Notes under the pieces: generated by a model
What the model was told of the DNA's origin: nothing
Databases searched by the model: none
The model's input: the letters and a program-made list of their open reading frames with translations, nothing else
In this document: positions 5,270 through 64,000 of the stretch, one piece after another
Position numbering within the stretch: the stretch's first letter is position 1
How the letters are laid out: the number at the start of each line of letters is the position of its first letter
Assembly (NCBI RefSeq): GCF_014645895.1
Contig: NZ_BMMP01000001.1
Span: forward strand, 186,001-250,000
DNA length: 64,000 nucleotides
Source: Streptomyces daqingensis
GTDB lineage: Bacteria; Actinomycetota; Actinomycetes; Streptomycetales; Streptomycetaceae
Direction: 5' to 3'
Position numbers and translations under genes: made by a program

Positions 5270-6028
5270 GTGTCCGGCCACTCTAAGTGGGCAACCACCA
5301 AGCACAAGAAGGCCGTGATCGATGCCAAGCGCGGCAAACTCTTCGCCAAACTGATCAAGAACATCGAGGTCGCCGCCCGCACGGGCGGAGCCGACCCCGA
5401 GGGGAACCCGACGCTCTACGACGCCATCCAGAAGGCCAAGAAGAGTTCGGTGCCCAACAAGAACATCGACAGCGCGGTGAAGCGGGGCGCCGGCCTGGAG
5501 GCGGGCGGCGCCGACTACGAGACGATCATGTACGAGGGCTACGGCCCGAACGGCGTGGCAGTGCTCATCGAATGCCTCACCGACAACCGCAACCGCGCCG
5601 CGTCGGACGTGCGTGTCGCCATGACGCGCAACGGCGGCTCCATGGCCGACCCCGGCTCCGTCTCCTACCTCTTCAACCGCAAGGGCGTCGTCATCGTCCC
5701 GAAGGGGGAGGACGGGCTCTCCGAGGACGACGTGCTCGGCGCGGTGCTCGAGGCCGGGGCCGAGGAAGTCAACGACCTGGGCGAGAACTTCGAGGTCATC
5801 AGCGAGGCGACCGACCTCGTCGCCGTCCGCACGGCGCTCGTGGACGCCGGGATCGACTACGAGTCGGCCGACAACAGCTTCCTGCCCAGCGTGCAGGTGC
5901 CGCTGGAGGAGGAAGGCGCCCGCAAGATCTTCAAGTTGATCGACGCGCTGGAGGACAGCGACGACGTGCAGAACGTCTTCGCCAACTTCGACGTGGCGGA
6001 CGACGTCATGGCCAAGGTCGACGCCTGA
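5270..6028 (+). CDS. yebC: YebC/TACO1-family protein
   Basis: 252 aa, full-length YebC/PmpR family with the hallmark N-terminus [15 protein letters not shown]. Family members have been described both as DNA-binding regulators and, more recently, as ribosome-associated factors helping translation of proline stretches; which applies here is not visible. GTG start at 5270 preceded by GAAGGAG (5256-5262). A TAGGAT hexamer at 5222-5227 is a candidate -10. It lies upstream of ruvCAB as in many bacteria, but a strong terminator (6058-6090) and a separate ruvC promoter suggest independent transcription. Confidence 0.93.
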
Positions 6029-7607: not shown

Positions 7608-8717
7608 ATGAGCAAGGGCGCAAACGAGGAGTACGCGGCGGGTCGGGGCGCCGGGGCGGAGGCCGGAGCAGACCGCCTCGTCGGCCCCGAGGCGGACAGC
7701 GAGGAGAGCGCAGTCGAAGCGGCCCTGCGCCCGAAGGAACTGGGCGAGTTCATCGGCCAGCCCAAGGTGCGCGAGCAGCTCGACCTCGTACTCAAGGCCG
7801 CCCGGCAGCGCAACGGCACGGCCGACCACGTACTGCTCTCGGGCGCACCGGGGCTGGGCAAGACGACCCTGTCCATGATCATCGCGGCGGAGATGGCCGC
7901 GCCGATCCGCATCACCTCCGGTCCGGCCATCCAGCACGCGGGCGACCTCGCCGCGATCCTCTCCTCGCTCCAGGAGGGCGAGGTGCTCTTCCTCGACGAG
8001 ATCCACCGGATGTCCCGCCCCGCCGAGGAGATGCTCTACATGGCGATGGAGGACTTCCGCGTCGACGTGATCGTCGGAAAGGGCCCCGGAGCCACGGCGA
8101 TCCCCCTGGAACTGCCGCCGTTCACCCTCGTCGGCGCCACGACCCGTGCGGGCCTGCTGCCGCCGCCGCTGCGCGACAGGTTCGGCTTCACCGCGCACAT
8201 GGAGTTCTACGAACCGCACGAGCTGGAGCAGGTCGTGCACCGCTCGGCCCGGCTGCTCGACGTCGAGATCGACGCGGAAGGCGCAGCCGAGATCGCCGGG
8301 CGCTCCCGGGGCACGCCCCGCATCGCGAACCGCCTGCTGCGCCGCGTCCGGGACTACGCCCAGGTCAAGGCCGACGGCTCCGTCGACCGGGACATCGCCT
8401 CCCGGGCCCTGGGCGTCTACGAGGTCGACGAGCGGGGCCTGGACCGGCTCGACCGGGCCGTGCTGACCGCTCTGCTGAAGCTCTTCGGCGGCGGCCCCGT
8501 CGGTCTCTCCACGCTTTCCGTCGCGGTCGGCGAGGAGCGTGAGACGGTTGAGGAAGTGGCCGAGCCGTTCCTCGTACGCGAGGGCCTGCTTGCCCGTACT
8601 CCGCGGGGCCGCATCGCCACACCGGCGGCATGGGACCACCTGGACATGCCGAGGCCCCCGCAGAATCCGCCGCAGTCACCGGGCGGAACGGGACAACAGG
8701 GGTTGTTCGGAGCGTGA
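7608..8717 (+). CDS. ruvB: Holliday junction branch-migration ATPase RuvB
   Basis: AAA+ hexameric motor that drives branch migration. 369 aa. Walker A GAPGLGKT at 79-86, Walker B LFLDEIH with D130-E131, sensor 1 ATTRAG, sensor 2 region [15 protein letters not shown], and the C-terminal winged helix for DNA binding. The first 30 residues are an actinobacterial extension. It starts 73 bases after ruvA in the same operon. Confidence 0.96.
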
Positions 8718-58541: not shown

Positions 58542-59999
58542 GTGAGCAACAGGCCGCGCCGCCCGTCGAAGCCCTACCGCCGTCCCCGCAAGGACCCGGT
58601 CCGCATCCTCGCCTTCGAGGCGCTGCGCGCCGTCGACGAGCGCGACGCGTACGCGAACCTCGTGCTGCCTCCGCTTCTGCGGAAGGCCCGCGACAAGGGC
58701 GACTTCGACTCCCGGGACGCGGCCCTGGCCACCGAGCTGGTCTACGGAACGCTGCGCTGGCAGGGCACCTACGACGCGATTGTCGCCGAGTGCGTGGACC
58801 GTCCGCTGCGCGAGGTCGACCCGCCCGTGCTCGACGTGCTCTCTCTCGGCGTGCACCAGCTGCTGAACACCCGCATCCCCACCCATGCGGGAGTGAGCGC
58901 CACCGTCGAACTGGCCCGTGTCGTACTGGGGGACGGGCGTGCGAAGTTCGTCAACGCGGTGCTCCGCAAGGTCGCCGCGGACGACCTGGAGGGCTGGCTG
59001 GAGAGGGTGACGCCTTCGTACGACGAGGACCCGGAGGAGCACCTGGGAATCCGTCACGCGCATCCGCGCTGGGTGGTCTCCGCGCTCTGGGACTCCCTCG
59101 GCGGCGGCAGCAACGGCATGGAGGACCTGCTGGCCGCGGACAACGACAGGCCGGAGGTGACCCTGGTGGCCCGTCCGGGCCGTGCCACCACGGAGGAGCT
59201 GCTCACCGGCGATGCCGTCCCCGGCCGCTGGTCGCCCTACGCGGTGCGGCTCGCGGAGGGCGGCGAACCCGGTGCGATCGACGCCGTGCGCGAGGGGCGG
59301 GCCGGCGTGCAGGACGAGGGGAGCCAGCTCGTCGCGCTGGCGCTCGCCGGCGCACCGCTGGAGCCTCCCGCCGAGGACGGCGCGAGCGCGTCCGGCGAGG
59401 AGCGGGACGGGAGCGGCCGGGGCGAGCGGTGGCTGGACGGCTGCGCCGGGCCCGGGGGCAAGGCCGCGCTGCTCGGGGCCCTCGCCGCGCAGCGCGGCGC
59501 CGTGCTCCTCGCCGCGGAGAAGCAGCAGCACCGTGCGGGCCTCGTGGCCCGCTCCCTGGACGGCAACCCGGGCCCGTACGCGGTGGTCACCGCGGACGCG
59601 ACGCGTCCCGCGTGGCGGCCGGGCTCCTTCGACCGCGTCCTGGTCGACGTGCCCTGCACGGGGCTGGGTGCGCTGCGCCGGCGCCCCGAGGCGCGCTGGC
59701 GCCGCAGCCCCGAGGACGTGACCGGCTTCGCGCCTCTCCAGCGCGACCTGCTGCGGCAGGCCCTGAACTCGGTGCGCGTGGGCGGGGTCGTCTGCTACGC
59801 CACCTGCTCACCGCACCTCGCGGAGACCCGGGCCGTCGTCGGGGACCTGGTCAAGGAGACGGGCGCCGAACAGATCGACGTCAGGCCGCTGCTGCCCGAG
59901 ATGCCCCACCTGGGCGACGGACCGGACGTGCAGCTGTGGCCCCATCTCCACGGGACCGACGCGATGTACATGGCGCTGCTGCGCCGTACCCCTTCCTGA
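58542..59999 (+). CDS. rsmB: 16S rRNA (cytosine-967 C5)-methyltransferase RsmB
   Basis: SAM-dependent rRNA methyltransferase (Fmu/Sun). 485 aa from GTG 58542. N-terminal NusB-like domain (PVRILAFEALRAVDERDAYANLVLPPLL, to about 165), then a Rossmann domain with the SAM loop DGCAGPGGKAALL and the two catalytic cysteine motifs VDVPCTGLG and CYATCSPH. An Asp/Glu/Ser-rich insertion of about 20 residues precedes the SAM loop. A candidate -10 TAGGCT lies at 58494-58499. Confidence 0.95.
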   Translation: MSNRPRRPSKPYRRPRKDPVRILAFEALRAVDERDAYANLVLPPLLRKARDKGDFDSRDAALATELVYGTLRWQGTYDAIVAECVDRPLREVDPPVLDVLSLGVHQLLNTRIPTHAGVSATVELARVVLGDGRAKFVNAVLRKVAADDLEGWLERVTPSYDEDPEEHLGIRHAHPRWVVSALWDSLGGGSNGMEDLLAADNDRPEVTLVARPGRATTEELLTGDAVPGRWSPYAVRLAEGGEPGAIDAVREGRAGVQDEGSQLVALALAGAPLEPPAEDGASASGEERDGSGRGERWLDGCAGPGGKAALLGALAAQRGAVLLAAEKQQHRAGLVARSLDGNPGPYAVVTADATRPAWRPGSFDRVLVDVPCTGLGALRRRPEARWRRSPEDVTGFAPLQRDLLRQALNSVRVGGVVCYATCSPHLAETRAVVGDLVKETGAEQIDVRPLLPEMPHLGDGPDVQLWPHLHGTDAMYMALLRRTPS

Positions 60000-60057: not shown

Positions 60058-60867
60058 TCAGTTCCCCTGCCAGTCGGGGGTGCGCTTGTCGAGGAACGCG
60101 GTCACGCCCTCGCGGAAGTCGCGGCTCCCGTAGCAGAGTTCGTACAGGTCGTCGGCGGGGCCGGGGGCCGAGGCGGCCAGCACCCGCCGGTCGGCCTCCT
60201 TCAGCGCGGCGAGCGTGAGGGGCGCTCCGCGGGCGATGCCGGCGCACGTCGCGGCGATGCGCTCGTCGAACTCCTCACGTTCCACGACCTCCTGGACGAA
60301 GCCGGCCGTCAGCGCCTCCTGCGCGCCGATCAGTTCGGCGGTGAGCAGCGCCCGCAGCGTGCGGGCCCTGCCGAGCGAGGCGTAGAGACGCGCGACGACG
60401 GCCGGTGCGAGGCAGTTGCCGAGCGTGCGGGCGATGGGTGCGCCGAACACCGCGTCCGGCGTGCACAGTACGAGGTCGCAGCAGGCGGACAGGGCGATGC
60501 CGGCGCCCACCGCCGGTCCTTCGACGGCGCCGACGACCGGCATGCGCACCGAGGCGAGACGTTCCACGGCCCGCCCCACGCGCTTCTCGTAGGCGACGCC
60601 GTCGGCGCCCGACGTGAACCCCCGGAACTCGCGGATGTCGGTGCCCGCTGCGAAGGCGCGGCCGCCGGCGCCGCGCAGCACGGTCACCTGGACCTCCGGG
60701 TCGGCGTCGATCTCCTCGCAGGCGAGTTCGAGCTGGTCGTACATGCCCATCGTCAGGGCGTTCCGCTGACGCGGGTTGGAGAGCGTCAGATGCGCCGCGG
60801 AGGAACCTGTGCCGGGTACCTCCTGCTTCGTCCAGCGGGCGGACGGCGGATGGACGTCGGTGGTCAT
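60058..60867 (-). CDS. Crotonase-superfamily (enoyl-CoA hydratase/isomerase-like) protein lacking both catalytic glutamates
   Basis: 269 aa, ATG 60867 overlapping the CoA-transferase stop (ATGA). The crotonase fold is clear (NPRQRNALTMGMYDQL, the AFAAGTDIREF oxyanion segment, AVEGPAVGAGIALSACCDL, LTAGFVQEVV). The two residues used as acid/base in enoyl-CoA hydratase (E144 and E164 in rat) are A125 and I145 here, so simple hydration is unlikely; another crotonase reaction, or a partner-dependent role, is possible. Last gene of the right-edge operon. Confidence 0.85.
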   Translation of the reverse strand: MTTDVHPPSARWTKQEVPGTGSSAAHLTLSNPRQRNALTMGMYDQLELACEEIDADPEVQVTVLRGAGGRAFAAGTDIREFRGFTSGADGVAYEKRVGRAVERLASVRMPVVGAVEGPAVGAGIALSACCDLVLCTPDAVFGAPIARTLGNCLAPAVVARLYASLGRARTLRALLTAELIGAQEALTAGFVQEVVEREEFDERIAATCAGIARGAPLTLAALKEADRRVLAASAPGPADDLYELCYGSRDFREGVTAFLDKRTPDWQGN

Positions 60868-62027
60868 GCGTCCCCCAGCAGTTCCTCGTTGTGCTCTCCG
60901 AGCAGCGGCGGATGGCGGCGCACGCGGGCCGGGGTGCGGCCCAGTTTGACCGGGAAGCCGAGGACCTGCGCCCTGCCCTCGACGGGGTGCTCGTACTCCT
61001 CGACCATGCCGCGTGCCTCGGCGTGCGGGTCGCCTCCGAGGATCTGCCCGTAGTCGAGGATCGGGCCGGCGGGGATGCCCGCGTCCAGGAGCAGCCGTAC
61101 GCACTGCTCCGTGGTCTCCGTCGCCAGCCGCCCCTCCAGCAGGGCGATCAGCTCGGCCCGGTGCTCCATCCGGTCGGTGTTGGAGGCGAAGCGCTCGTCG
61201 CCGGCGAGGTGCTCCAGGCCGAGGGCGTCGCACAGGCGGTGCCACAGTCGCTGGTTGTTGGCGGCGATGGTGACGTGGCCGTCGGCGGTGCGCACCGCCT
61301 GGTACGGGGCCGCCATGCGGTGGGCCGAGCCGAGCGGCCGGGGCGTGCGCCCGGAGGCGAAGTACTCCGTCGACTCCCACACCGACATCGCCAGCACCGC
61401 CTCGTACAGGGACGTCTCCAGGTACTGGCCCTCGCCGGTGCGCAGCCGGTGGTGGTACGCGCCGAGGATGCCGATCGCGCAGAGCATCCCCGCTCCCAGA
61501 TCGCCCACGGGCAGACCGCACTTGACGGGGTCGCCGCCGGGCTCGCCGGTGACGCTGAGGGAGCCGGCCATGGCCTGCGCGATCAGGTCGTAGCCGGGCC
61601 GGTCCGCGTACGGGCCGTACTGGCCGAACCCGGAGATCGAGGCGTAGACGACGTCCGGCCGGATCCGCCGTGCCGCTTCGTAGCCGACGCCGAGGCGGTC
61701 GGCGACACCGGGGCGGAAGTTCTCCACGACGACGTCGGCATCGGAGACGAGCCTGCGGAAGCCCTCCTGCCCGTCGTCCGAGCGCAGATCGAGGGTGACG
61801 CTGCGCTTGTTGCGGTTCAGCGCGTGGAAGGCGGGGCTGTCGCGCCCGGGGAGGGGGGTGTCCCAGGAGCGCCGGATCTGGTCGCCGGTGCCGGCGGGCT
61901 CGACCTTCACCACGTCCGCGCCGAGGTCGGCGAGGAGCATCGTGCAGTAGGGGCCCGCCATGACCTGGGTGAAGTCCACGACGCGTACGCCTTCGAGCGC
62001 CCCGGGCGGGAGGGGGGTGGGGGTCAC
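60864..62027 (-). CDS. Family III CoA-transferase (CaiB/BaiF)
   Basis: Predicted to move CoA from one carboxylic acid to another, or racemise an acyl-CoA. 387 aa from GTG 62027, overlapping the oxidase stop (GTGA). The N-terminus LEGVRVVDFTQVMAGPYCTMLLADLGADVVKVE... pattern is the family hallmark, and the catalytic Asp is D176 in PVGDLGAG. The region LGSAHRMAAPYQAVRTADGH resembles the glutarate/succinate-type members more than formyl-CoA transferase, from memory only. Substrate not predictable; neighbours suggest a 2-hydroxy acid or its oxo product. Confidence 0.9.
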   Translation of the reverse strand: MTPTPLPPGALEGVRVVDFTQVMAGPYCTMLLADLGADVVKVEPAGTGDQIRRSWDTPLPGRDSPAFHALNRNKRSVTLDLRSDDGQEGFRRLVSDADVVVENFRPGVADRLGVGYEAARRIRPDVVYASISGFGQYGPYADRPGYDLIAQAMAGSLSVTGEPGGDPVKCGLPVGDLGAGMLCAIGILGAYHHRLRTGEGQYLETSLYEAVLAMSVWESTEYFASGRTPRPLGSAHRMAAPYQAVRTADGHVTIAANNQRLWHRLCDALGLEHLAGDERFASNTDRMEHRAELIALLEGRLATETTEQCVRLLLDAGIPAGPILDYGQILGGDPHAEARGMVEEYEHPVEGRAQVLGFPVKLGRTPARVRRHPPLLGEHNEELLGDA

Positions 62028-64000
62028 GTGCGGGCTGCTCCCTCGTCGTCGGCTCCGGCTTCCGTGGCGGGACCGGTCAGCAGCGCCTCCCGCACGAGTT
62101 CCACGGGATGCCAGGCGCTGCGCTCGGTGCCGTGGAAGATCTGCTGGCGGCAGGAGACCCCGGTGGCGGCGAGGACGGTCGCGCCGGACTCCGCGGCGAT
62201 GGCGGGGAAGAGGCGGTCGCCGCCGACCGTCATCGACAGCTCGTAGTGCTCGGACTCGAAGCCGAACGAACCGGCCATGCCGCAGCAGCCCGCGTCCAGT
62301 TCGACGACCTCCGCGCCCGGTATCCGCTTCAGCAGCTCCACGGTGGCGGCCGTCCCGACCTCCGCCTTCTGATGGCAGTGGCCGTGGTACAGGATTCTGC
62401 GGCCCGCGGGCCAGCTCGCCCCGTCCAGGCGCAGCCTGCCGTCGTCGACCGCCTCGGCGAGCATCTCCTCGACCTGCCGCACCCGTCCGGCCACGTCCTG
62501 GACGGCGGGGTCGTCCGGGAGCAGGGCGCGGTGTTCGTCCCGCAGCGTCATCAGGCACGACGGCTCGCAGCCCACGACGGGGGAGCCCGGCTCCCCCGAC
62601 TCGGCCAGCAGCGACGCCAGGTGCCGTGCCTCGTCCTTGGCCTGCTCGACGAGCCCCTTGGAGAAGGCGGCACGTCCGCAGCAGCCGCGAGTCTCCAACT
62701 TCACGTTCCAGCCCGCGAGTTCGAGAAGCTCGATGGCCGCACGGCCGATGCCCGGCTCGGTGTATGTGGTGAAGGAGTCGGCGAGGTAGGTGAGGGTGCC
62801 GGGTCCGGACGGGTCCGCACCGGCGGCCGCTGTGGTCGCGTCCCCGGGCGGGACGTGCCGTTCGCGGAACCAGCGCACAAGGTTCCTGCGCGTGAAGCGC
62901 GGCAGCGGACGGGCCGGTGTGATGCCCAGCAGGCGGTCCATCAGCAGGCGCACGGGACGGATGCGCCCCGGGAGGTTGGACAGGGGGGCGGTGGCGGAAC
63001 CGAGCCTGTTGAGACGGCGGATGGAGCCGAAGACCTTCGACCTTCGGGGTATGCCGTGCTGCTCGTGCCGGTGGGAGAGCGCCTCCGCCTTCAACGTCGC
63101 CATGTCGACACCGAGGGGGCACTCGCTCTTGCACGCCTTGCACATCAGGCACAGGTCGAGGACCTCGTGCAGCCGCTCGTCGCCCAGCGCCGTGTGCGGA
63201 TCGGGCTCGGAGAGCGCCTTGACGAGGGCGTTGGCGCGTCCGCGTGTGGAGTCCTCCTCCTTCAGGGTGGCCATGTAGGAGGGGCACATGGTGCCGCTCT
63301 CGCTCTTGCGGCACAGCCCGATGTTCATGCAGCGGTCGGCGGCGCCGCGCATCCCGCCGACGACCTCGAACTCCAGCTGGGTGCGCAGCGGTCCGGCGGG
63401 CGGCAGCGCGGGGTCGCGGAGGTTGTCGGTCATGGCGGGGGCGTCCACGATCTTGCCGGGGTTGAGACGTCCTTGGGGATCGAAGAGGCCCTTGACCTGG
63501 CGCATCGCCTCGTACAGCTCGTCGCCGAAGATCTCGCGGTTGAACTCGCTGCGGGCCAGCCCGTCGCCGTGCTCGCTGGAGTTGACGCCGCCGTACTCCC
63601 GCACCAGGTCCTTGACCTCCTCGGCGACCGCCCGCATCGTGGCGACCTGCCCCGGGTCGGCGGCGTCGACGAACGGACGGATGTGCAGGCATCCGACCGA
63701 GCAGTGCCCGTAGAAGCCCGCGGAGAGCCCGTGCCGGTCGAGCACCTCCTTGAACCGCCCCGTGTACTCGGCGAGATGGACCGGGTCGACGGCGGTGTCC
63801 TCGACGAAGGCCAGCGGGCGGCGCGTCCCCTCACCCGCGGCCATCAGCAGTCCGAGGCTGGACTTGCGGACCTTCAACAGCGAGCTCTGCTGCGCGGGGG
63901 TGACGGCCTTGAGGGTGTGGTAGCCGTGGCCGTGGCGCGACCAGAGGGACGTGAGCCTGTCCAGCGCGCCGGTCAGCGCCGCCTCGTCGTCGCCGGTGAA
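62024..64000 (-). CDS. FAD-linked oxidase / Fe-S D-2-hydroxyacid dehydrogenase (YdiJ-like), 5' truncated
   Basis: Flavin and iron-sulfur dehydrogenase of D-2-hydroxy acids (D-lactate or D-2-hydroxyglutarate type). The gene enters from beyond the right edge; 658 C-terminal residues are visible and the frame is open to base 64000. Visible in order: the end of the FAD-oxidase domain with SSEHGDGLARSEF (about 143-154), a first Fe-S motif C224-x5-C230-x8-C239-P, a second motif C284-x2-C287-x2-C290-x3-C294-P, and two CCG-type domains with GCCGRAAF, HCHQK and GCCGMAGSF. Its stop overlaps the CoA-transferase start. An operon promoter must lie outside the window. Confidence 0.9.
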   Translation of the reverse strand, partial: FTGDDEAALTGALDRLTSLWSRHGHGYHTLKAVTPAQQSSLLKVRKSSLGLLMAAGEGTRRPLAFVEDTAVDPVHLAEYTGRFKEVLDRHGLSAGFYGHCSVGCLHIRPFVDAADPGQVATMRAVAEEVKDLVREYGGVNSSEHGDGLARSEFNREIFGDELYEAMRQVKGLFDPQGRLNPGKIVDAPAMTDNLRDPALPPAGPLRTQLEFEVVGGMRGAADRCMNIGLCRKSESGTMCPSYMATLKEEDSTRGRANALVKALSEPDPHTALGDERLHEVLDLCLMCKACKSECPLGVDMATLKAEALSHRHEQHGIPRRSKVFGSIRRLNRLGSATAPLSNLPGRIRPVRLLMDRLLGITPARPLPRFTRRNLVRWFRERHVPPGDATTAAAGADPSGPGTLTYLADSFTTYTEPGIGRAAIELLELAGWNVKLETRGCCGRAAFSKGLVEQAKDEARHLASLLAESGEPGSPVVGCEPSCLMTLRDEHRALLPDDPAVQDVAGRVRQVEEMLAEAVDDGRLRLDGASWPAGRRILYHGHCHQKAEVGTAATVELLKRIPGAEVVELDAGCCGMAGSFGFESEHYELSMTVGGDRLFPAIAAESGATVLAATGVSCRQQIFHGTERSAWHPVELVREALLTGPATEAGADDEGAART

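Follow-up and report, generated by a model that had tools for sequence, protein, structure and literature searches.

The stretch analysed here is a 64,000-nucleotide window of the Streptomyces daqingensis genome (G000:C1:186001-250000; 6.54 Mb in 50 contigs), at whose right-hand end begins an islet of six genes encoding a class V aminotransferase (AT), an FAD/Fe-S 2-hydroxyacid dehydrogenase (DH), a family III CoA-transferase (CoAT), a crotonase-fold protein (CRO), an IclR regulator and a MatC-type transporter (Table 1). The six genes occupy a gap of 8977 bp between rpe and a gene that we take, from synteny and sequence, to be rsmB/sun. An earlier account made from the letters of the window (the sequence-only reading) had described three genes coupled by 4-base overlaps, had placed their upstream end outside the window and had advised looking beyond position 64000 for a transporter or a regulator. 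All three genes lie on the minus strand with both overlaps present, and the adjoining 12 kb (L008, whose position 6001 is window position 64000) contains the start of DH, AT at the head of the operon, a MatC-type transporter and a divergent IclR gene. The genes are arranged for joint transcription as an operon, AT-DH-CoAT-CRO.

Table 1. Positions of the islet genes, their overlaps, the putative operator and the flanking genes (plain numbers are window positions)
Feature	Position	Strand	Remarks
DH, FAD/Fe-S 2-hydroxyacid dehydrogenase	62024..64000 in window	(-)	C-terminal 658 of 1008 residues; 5' end outside, window-equivalent 65050
DH, full length	L008:4025-7051	(-)	1008 aa
CoAT, family III CoA-transferase	60864..62027	(-)	387 aa, GTG start, Asp175 in GDLGAG motif
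CRO, crotonase-fold protein, NCBIfam PRK06144 subfamily	60058..60867	(-)	269 aa, ATG start
GTGA overlap, DH stop / CoAT start	62024..62027	(-)	4 bases
ATGA overlap, CoAT stop / CRO start	60864..60867	(-)	4 bases
AT, class V aminotransferase, operon head	L008:7131-8303		same operon; 79 bp before DH
IclR regulator, divergent	L008 ORF 8297-9166		start probably near 8402, judged by eye
37-bp twin operator-like site	L008:8327-8363 = G000:C1:252326-252362		outside window, between IclR and AT
MatC_N/CitMHS transporter	L008:9260-10855		same direction as IclR
rsmB/sun homologue	58542..59999	(+)	left neighbour of islet
rpe	start L008:10978, window-equivalent 68977		right neighbour of islet

Comparable loci were collected by an AT-based scan of genome contigs, which returned 595, and the best 80 (39 from Actinomycetota and 41 others) were kept for co-occurrence counts, DH being counted within 6 kb of AT and CoAT or CRO within 10 kb. 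The queries also took DH, CoAT and CRO of L060 and CRO of L021 in order to reach divergent types, and L060 is itself among the 80; gene calls within loci came from our own heuristic, which misses some genes. DH accompanies AT in 64/80 loci, and CoAT and CRO are both present in 17/80, 16 of these with DH, which supports inheritance as one unit; the sequence-only reading had named homologues that never co-occur as a refutation, and that outcome was not seen. By group, the Actinomycetota loci have DH in 35, CoAT in 11, CRO in 10 and both of the latter in 9 (all 9 with DH), together with MatC in 30 and IclR in 29, and the other loci have DH in 29, CoAT in 14, CRO in 12 and both in 8 (7 of these with DH). 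Many AT loci are cut by contig ends; among those with 9 kb on both sides (full-flank loci), DH is found in 26/26 from Actinomycetota and 10/17 of the others.

The genome of the window carries 8 CoA_transf_3 and 10 ECH_1 genes at E <= 1e-20, so that a point taken at random should have about 0.02-0.03 genes of each family within 10 kb, or about one per 39 loci, a control drawn from one genome when others may hold more copies. The loci that carry both CoAT and CRO include three Modestobacter and two Pseudonocardia, which as members of one genus are not independent, and in Brevibacterium antiquum (L102, one of the nine) the two genes lie 8-9.5 kb from AT and may belong elsewhere. Seven further genomes of the class were found through CRO; two (G287, G101) have the whole set in the fetched stretch, and five have no AT or DH there. 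The combination is more than chance, because it recurs in distant bacteria, and the four enzymes very probably serve one pathway, since they co-occur in Actinomycetota and Pseudomonadota even though the gene order, the transporter, the regulator and the class of crotonase all vary.

The three-gene order that the sequence-only reading had advised seeking in other genomes recurs in Amycolatopsis taiwanensis, where the operon of the window has an MFS gene inserted (L054, AT-MFS-DH-CoAT-CRO); other loci vary in both order and strands. MatC-CoAT-CRO and AT-DH are transcribed away from each other in Modestobacter, two Pseudonocardia and Rhodococcus rhodnii; in L060 and L065, and similarly in L100, GntR and DH face AT-TRAP-CRO-CoAT; Cupriavidus metallidurans CH34 (L022), which carries DH, AT, CRO and CoAT together on its megaplasmid, has Tct genes in the place of TRAP; an Acidiphilium cryptum plasmid (L020) encodes an SBF symporter, with DH missing from the vicinity; and Caballeronia (L021) has an MFS gene in the set. 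The transporter can also be a lactate-permease (LctP) family protein, as in L034, L046, L049, L063 and L080, which lack a MatC match. E. coli GlcA, a glycolate/lactate symporter, belongs to the LctP family.

Neither CoAT nor CRO lies within 10 kb in 18/26 full-flank Actinomycetota AT-DH loci (the rest of most of these genomes was not searched), 14 of the 18 having MatC and 15 IclR, and the same holds for 4/10 full-flank loci with DH outside that phylum; CoAT-CRO pairs occur without AT-DH in the fetched stretches of L018, L019, L024, L025 and L030. Because each pair is found without the other, AT-DH is read as the core and CoAT-CRO as an accessory front-end that would feed it. In trees of CRO (35 sequences above 110 bits) and CoAT alike, the window protein groups with that of G250 (L024, no AT-DH seen) with support of 100/99, and is set apart from a Modestobacter/Pseudonocardia branch (100/99 for CRO, 100/100 for CoAT); Prauserella joins the window group on the CoAT tree and not on the CRO tree. 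The trees suggest that the CoAT-CRO pair joined AT-DH more than once, with the caveats that loci were sampled by AT, that several forks are weak and that the clustering of AT-DH labels on the CoAT tree was matched by 104/500 shuffles.

Some loci combine these genes with others. The class-1 crotonase (defined below) of L017 lies beside a tartrate dehydrogenase, that of L018 near Tct-type binding proteins, and those of L019 and L024 by sugar-type ABC transporters, with CoAT adjacent in the last three and no AT-DH in any of the four stretches. In a Terriglobia genome (L064:9998-14664) an amidase gene comes next after AT and precedes CoAT and CRO, DH was not found at this locus, and an amide is perhaps the starting substrate there. 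A neighbour survey listed 355 candidate ORFs, and Pfam scans of a few selected ones gave mostly transporters and unrelated genes.

DH combines the Pfam domains FAD_binding_4, FAD-oxidase_C, Fer4 and CCG in a fused FAD plus Fe-S/CCG architecture, i.e. a GlcD-GlcF-like fusion of the YdiJ type. Residues R395, H449, H456, E493 and H494 are present in 64/64 chains (those above 850 aa, from 73 loci with a match) and also in YdiJ and GlcD. They supply the C1-carboxylate Arg, the His/His/Glu metal site and the His base of FAD-dependent D-2-hydroxyacid dehydrogenases, as these roles are set out for D2HGDH/LDHD/GlcD-type enzymes in excerpts of PMC7801405 and PMC10589216. Arg458, found in 63/64 chains, is Arg in E. 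coli YdiJ and Leu in E. coli GlcD. In LDHD this position is taken by Ile407, part of the lining of the side-chain pocket, and a hydroxy-diacid is on this account a plausible substrate and glycolate a less plausible one. With regard to the distal site of human-type D2HGDH, where Lys401 and Asn443 bind the C5 carboxylate, DH has Arg458 for Asn443, within the motif H-x6-H-x-R, and the position of Lys401, read indirectly via LDHD, looks hydrophobic. The best NCBIfam profile is YdiJ (NF049975; 591.8 bits, under the equivalog cut-off of 1350), and YdiJ is strict for D-2-hydroxyglutarate among the acids tested, according to excerpts of PMC9504171.

The best solved relative of AT is serine-glyoxylate aminotransferase 6pk1 (378.7 bits over almost the full chain, query residues 5-384), followed by alanine-glyoxylate types, and its best profile is the BhcA aspartate-glyoxylate aminotransferase (NF045640), at 431.7 bits for the window protein and 473.4 for the Proteobacterial AT of L060, both under the cut-off of 650. 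AT homologues lie beside a D-hydantoinase in Oceanisphaera (L062:7797-9918, with an Asp/Glu/hydantoin racemase as well) and Zobellella (L067:5246-6700). Hydantoin or purine catabolism was considered for the islet in view of these neighbours and set aside, as no such gene is among its six.

CoAT matches Pfam CoA_transf_3 (PF02515) at 451.9 bits, above the gathering score of 23.3, and its Asp175, which we take to be the family III nucleophile, aligns with the Asp in GVAMTDLATG of SUGCT, one of the nearest solved structures. Its best NCBIfam matches are succinyl-CoA:mesaconate CoA-transferase (NF041294; 327.4 bits) and glutarate CoA-transferase (322.5 bits), both short of the equivalog cut-offs of 700 and 750. 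CRO matches Pfam ECH_1 at 142.7 bits and exceeds the subfamily cut-off of PRK06144 (NF004796; 306.9 vs 272 bits), and against methylmalonyl-CoA decarboxylase it scores 115.4 bits, under a cut-off of 257. No enzyme of the four reaches an NCBIfam equivalog cut-off among the families listed (for CRO, the best 25 of 69), and a clear assignment to separate known pathways, which the sequence-only reading had named as a finding that would undo its idea, did not emerge.

The description of the crotonase as atypical was apt, as Ala125 and Ile145 stand where the T. cruzi enoyl-CoA hydratase 9qwv has its catalytic Glu residues (E144 and E164 in rat numbering). The crotonases were aligned with one sequence per locus (above 100 bits, 220 aa minimum; 35/36 loci with a match) and fall into class 1, to which the window protein belongs, and class 2, ten Proteobacterial proteins 31-37% identical to it; the crotonase of L077 is outside both and was left out of the counts. 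Neither Glu is present in 24/24 class-1 members, and in class 2 the second is absent in 10/10 and the first present in 8/10. Beside the second-Glu place is a basic residue, Arg147 in 23/24 class-1 proteins (Ala in L028) and Lys in 10/10 of class 2, which would suit a substrate carboxylate. Since class-1 crotonases lack both hydratase Glu residues, decarboxylation or C-C cleavage appears likelier for the window protein than hydration. MenB works without the hydratase Glu pair. An alignment-based model of CRO shows the crotonase fold at a pLDDT of 94.8 (35.4 for a single-sequence AlphaFold model).

The palindrome GTGCCG-N5-CGGCAC lies between IclR and AT, and an imperfect repeat of it begins 20 bp upstream. 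A genome-wide search for the resulting 37-bp twin pattern gave this single site, with 0 mismatches, and no other at up to 3 mismatches, a loose limit at which the reversed control gave 2 forward and 2 reverse matches. The shorter form GTGCC-N7-GGCAC, with at most one mismatch, is found within 250 bp of AT in 23/87 AT loci; a window-type IclR (identity of 50% or more) is present in 24 loci, which comprise all of these 23 and one exception, L032 (51%), and 15 of the 17 exact sites in 80 named loci are in this place before AT. Taken by itself, L008 shows no significant enrichment of the one-mismatch pattern (5 sites vs 2.3 expected, 14/200 shuffles as high), so the evidence for an operator is its conserved place; there, before AT, it is a conserved putative IclR operator.

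Glyoxylate is bound in BhcR/IclR/AllR by Gly160, Asp212, Ser239 and Ser241, according to excerpts of PMC11323563, and the window IclR departs from this site with Ala, Asn, Ser and Asn at 160, 212, 239 and 241. In an alignment that omits short ORFs, Asn212 is kept in 20/20 window-type rows, mostly with Ala/Asn at 160/161, and the 11 rows below 50% identity all have Asp212, with both Ser in 9. A second IclR type (29-31% identical) that retains Asp212, Ser239 and Ser241 goes with the set in L028, L029, L040, L048, L050, L055, L057, L059 and L103. Judged by these residues, the case for glyoxylate as effector is weakened for the window type, and glyoxylate is compatible with the second type.

The interpretation put forward, tentatively and at rather less than an even chance, is that the islet was gained laterally and that its operon, AT-DH-CoAT-CRO, served by a MatC-type transporter and an IclR regulator of its own, allows a small organic acid to be used in four steps. 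CoAT would load the imported acid with CoA taken from a product thioester; CRO, devoid of the Glu pair, would hold the thioester carbonyl in the oxyanion hole and cleave a C-C bond, with no addition of water, by loss of CO2 or by retro-aldol release of glyoxylate. The 2-hydroxyacid, freed as CoA passes to the next substrate, would then be oxidised by DH, with electrons delivered to the respiratory chain, and AT would convert the resulting 2-oxo acid (glyoxylate or a close analogue) to glycine or a like amino acid. The gene content, the place between rsmB and rpe, the co-occurrence, the conserved catalytic residues of DH, the missing Glu pair of CRO and the conserved operator are observed, and the lateral origin, the order and chemistry of the reactions and the substrate are inferred. 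C3-C4 hydroxy-diacids are candidate substrates. A rather speculative proposal, and as such not a likely one, is an undescribed CoA-dependent route from tartronate or a tartrate isomer to glyoxylate and glycine, in which CoAT would make tartronyl- or tartryl-CoA with glycolyl-CoA as donor, CRO would form glycolyl-CoA (and, from tartrate, glyoxylate) by decarboxylation or retro-aldol cleavage, DH would oxidise the freed glycolate and AT would make glycine. Such a scheme uses all four enzymes and recycles CoA; the synthetic tartronyl-CoA pathway, as excerpted from PMC10729300, runs in the opposite direction.

Several observations weigh against the four-step scheme. Arg458, shared with YdiJ, favours a hydroxy-diacid over plain glycolate as the substrate, and together with the CoAT-CRO pair it would speak against plain glycolate oxidation as the whole story. 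Foldseek and VIA-align on the CRO model return crotonase-fold proteins of many functions, hydratases included, so the fold names no substrate. Most Proteobacterial sets use one-Glu crotonases, and the two classes need not share one chemistry. The effector of the window IclR need not be glyoxylate and may be another acid, because Asn212 replaces the glyoxylate-binding Asp, and MatC accompanies AT-DH also where CoAT-CRO is lacking and so need not carry the CoAT substrate.

The one-Glu crotonases bear directly on a CaiB/CaiD-like alternative, judged unlikely, in which CoAT would activate an unsaturated diacid of the mesaconate, fumarate or maleate type and CRO would hydrate it to a 2-hydroxy-diacid, which would give up its CoA for reuse and then be oxidised by DH and aminated by AT. 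The first Glu in 8/10 class-2 crotonases, the mesaconate and glutarate CoA-transferases as best matches of CoAT and the suitability of Arg458 for a diacid all favour hydration, but the class-1 proteins, that of the window included, lack both Glu residues and CoAT scores far under the two cut-offs. The sequence-only reading had instead proposed that DH oxidises a D-2-hydroxyacid, CoAT activates the acid and the crotonase acts on the thioester downstream. This accords with the gene order in the window and in Amycolatopsis taiwanensis, but order and strands vary across loci and many AT-DH loci have no CoAT-CRO within 10 kb (18/26, above); we know of no family III CoA-transferase that takes 2-oxo acids, which also counts against it, and oxidation as the opening step is accordingly held to be improbable.

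Slightly more doubtful still is a division of the operon into a YdiJ-like clean-up of D-2-hydroxyglutarate or D-malate by DH and AT, and a separate acyl-CoA function of CoAT-CRO with which transcription is merely shared. DH resembles YdiJ in architecture, best profile and Arg458, at 31% identity, but falls well short of the YdiJ cut-off, and in both phyla AT-DH is found together with CoAT-CRO, whose crotonase is of either class and whose gene order varies. Lastly, CoAT might be the actual enzyme and CRO, like EchA6, a scaffold or a protein that binds acyl-CoA. M. tuberculosis EchA6, which is not known to be active, is among the best fold matches and both Glu residues are lost, but 24 positions are invariant over 30 aligned crotonases of both classes (26 over 25 members), and a scaffold role is considered very unlikely.

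Several known systems share parts of the four-step operon proposed here. In Paracoccus denitrificans the beta-hydroxyaspartate cycle with the glycolate regulon (bhcABCD, BhcR, glcDEF, GlcR) has in common with it a 2-hydroxyacid dehydrogenase, a glyoxylate-type class V aminotransferase and an IclR regulator (GntR elsewhere), but the islet AT scores under the BhcA cut-off and its IclR under that of BhcR, the glyoxylate-binding Asp is missing from the window IclR, and CoAT and CRO are additional. Membership of that cycle was rejected on these scores and because BhcB, BhcC and BhcD are absent from the six islet proteins, to which the search was confined within the genome. E. coli YdiJ has the same fused architecture, the five catalytic residues and the equivalent of Arg458, yet differs in gene context as well as in score. 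The carnitine system CaiB/CaiD likewise couples a family III CoA-transferase with a crotonase and can recycle CoA between product and substrate, whereas in the islet the crotonase is without either hydratase Glu and is joined to a dehydrogenase and an aminotransferase. The mesaconate and glutarate/HMG (SUGCT) CoA-transferases are the nearest named relatives of CoAT by profile, SUGCT being also among the nearest solved structures, but the islet has no matching downstream enzymes. Crotonases that act on C-C bonds (methylmalonyl-CoA decarboxylase, MenB) share the fold of CRO. By gene content, and not by sequence comparison, there is a likeness to thiodipropionate catabolism, where a CoA-transferase is also clustered with crotonases (excerpts of PMC6370202).

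The suggestion of an undescribed catabolic pathway still stands, as no description of the cassette was found in the open-access literature (subscription journals were mostly outside the search); the main text of a dicarboxylate RB-TnSeq study (PMC12543098) does not contain the word 'aminotransferase'. The gene set probably enables certain soil bacteria to degrade a small organic acid, and a four-enzyme module found in two phyla with swapped parts would imply a substrate common enough for a dedicated pathway. The islet also offers a testable case in which a crotonase that lacks the hydratase glutamates is linked to the 2-hydroxyacid/glyoxylate node. Its IclR regulator, whose putative operator is sharply defined, could serve as a biosensor for the pathway substrate.

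Among relatives the islet is sporadic: CRO is matched (E <= 1e-60) in 1/61, its own genome only, AT (1e-100) and CoAT (1e-110) in 2/61 each, and CRO at 1e-50 in 8/296 genomes of the class, its own included. It has presumably been acquired laterally, given this distribution; base composition shows no sign of foreign origin (G+C of 71.5% in the islet vs 71.6% in its surroundings). In one relative, G019, AT adjoins a DH 79% identical to that of the window, and the whole genome has no CoAT (1e-110) or CRO (1e-60) match; this DH homologue (G019:C1:422083-425055) has one in-frame TGA within the match. With regard to the insertion place, rpe lies within about 0.2 kb of rsmB in 5/10 other Streptomyces that have an rsmB match (L116, L120, L121, L122, L126), about 1.4 kb away in one (L118) and beyond the 1.5 kb fetched after rsmB in four (L114, L115, L117, L119), and the two genes also adjoin in another family of the order (L125). 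Adjacency is probably the ancestral state of a variable junction, which, non-adjacent in 5/10 other Streptomyces, may be a recurrent insertion place. The genome also encodes a second YdiJ-like FAD/Fe-S dehydrogenase (G000:C4:125825-128737), 41% identical to DH and matched at E <= 1e-150 in 25/61 relatives.

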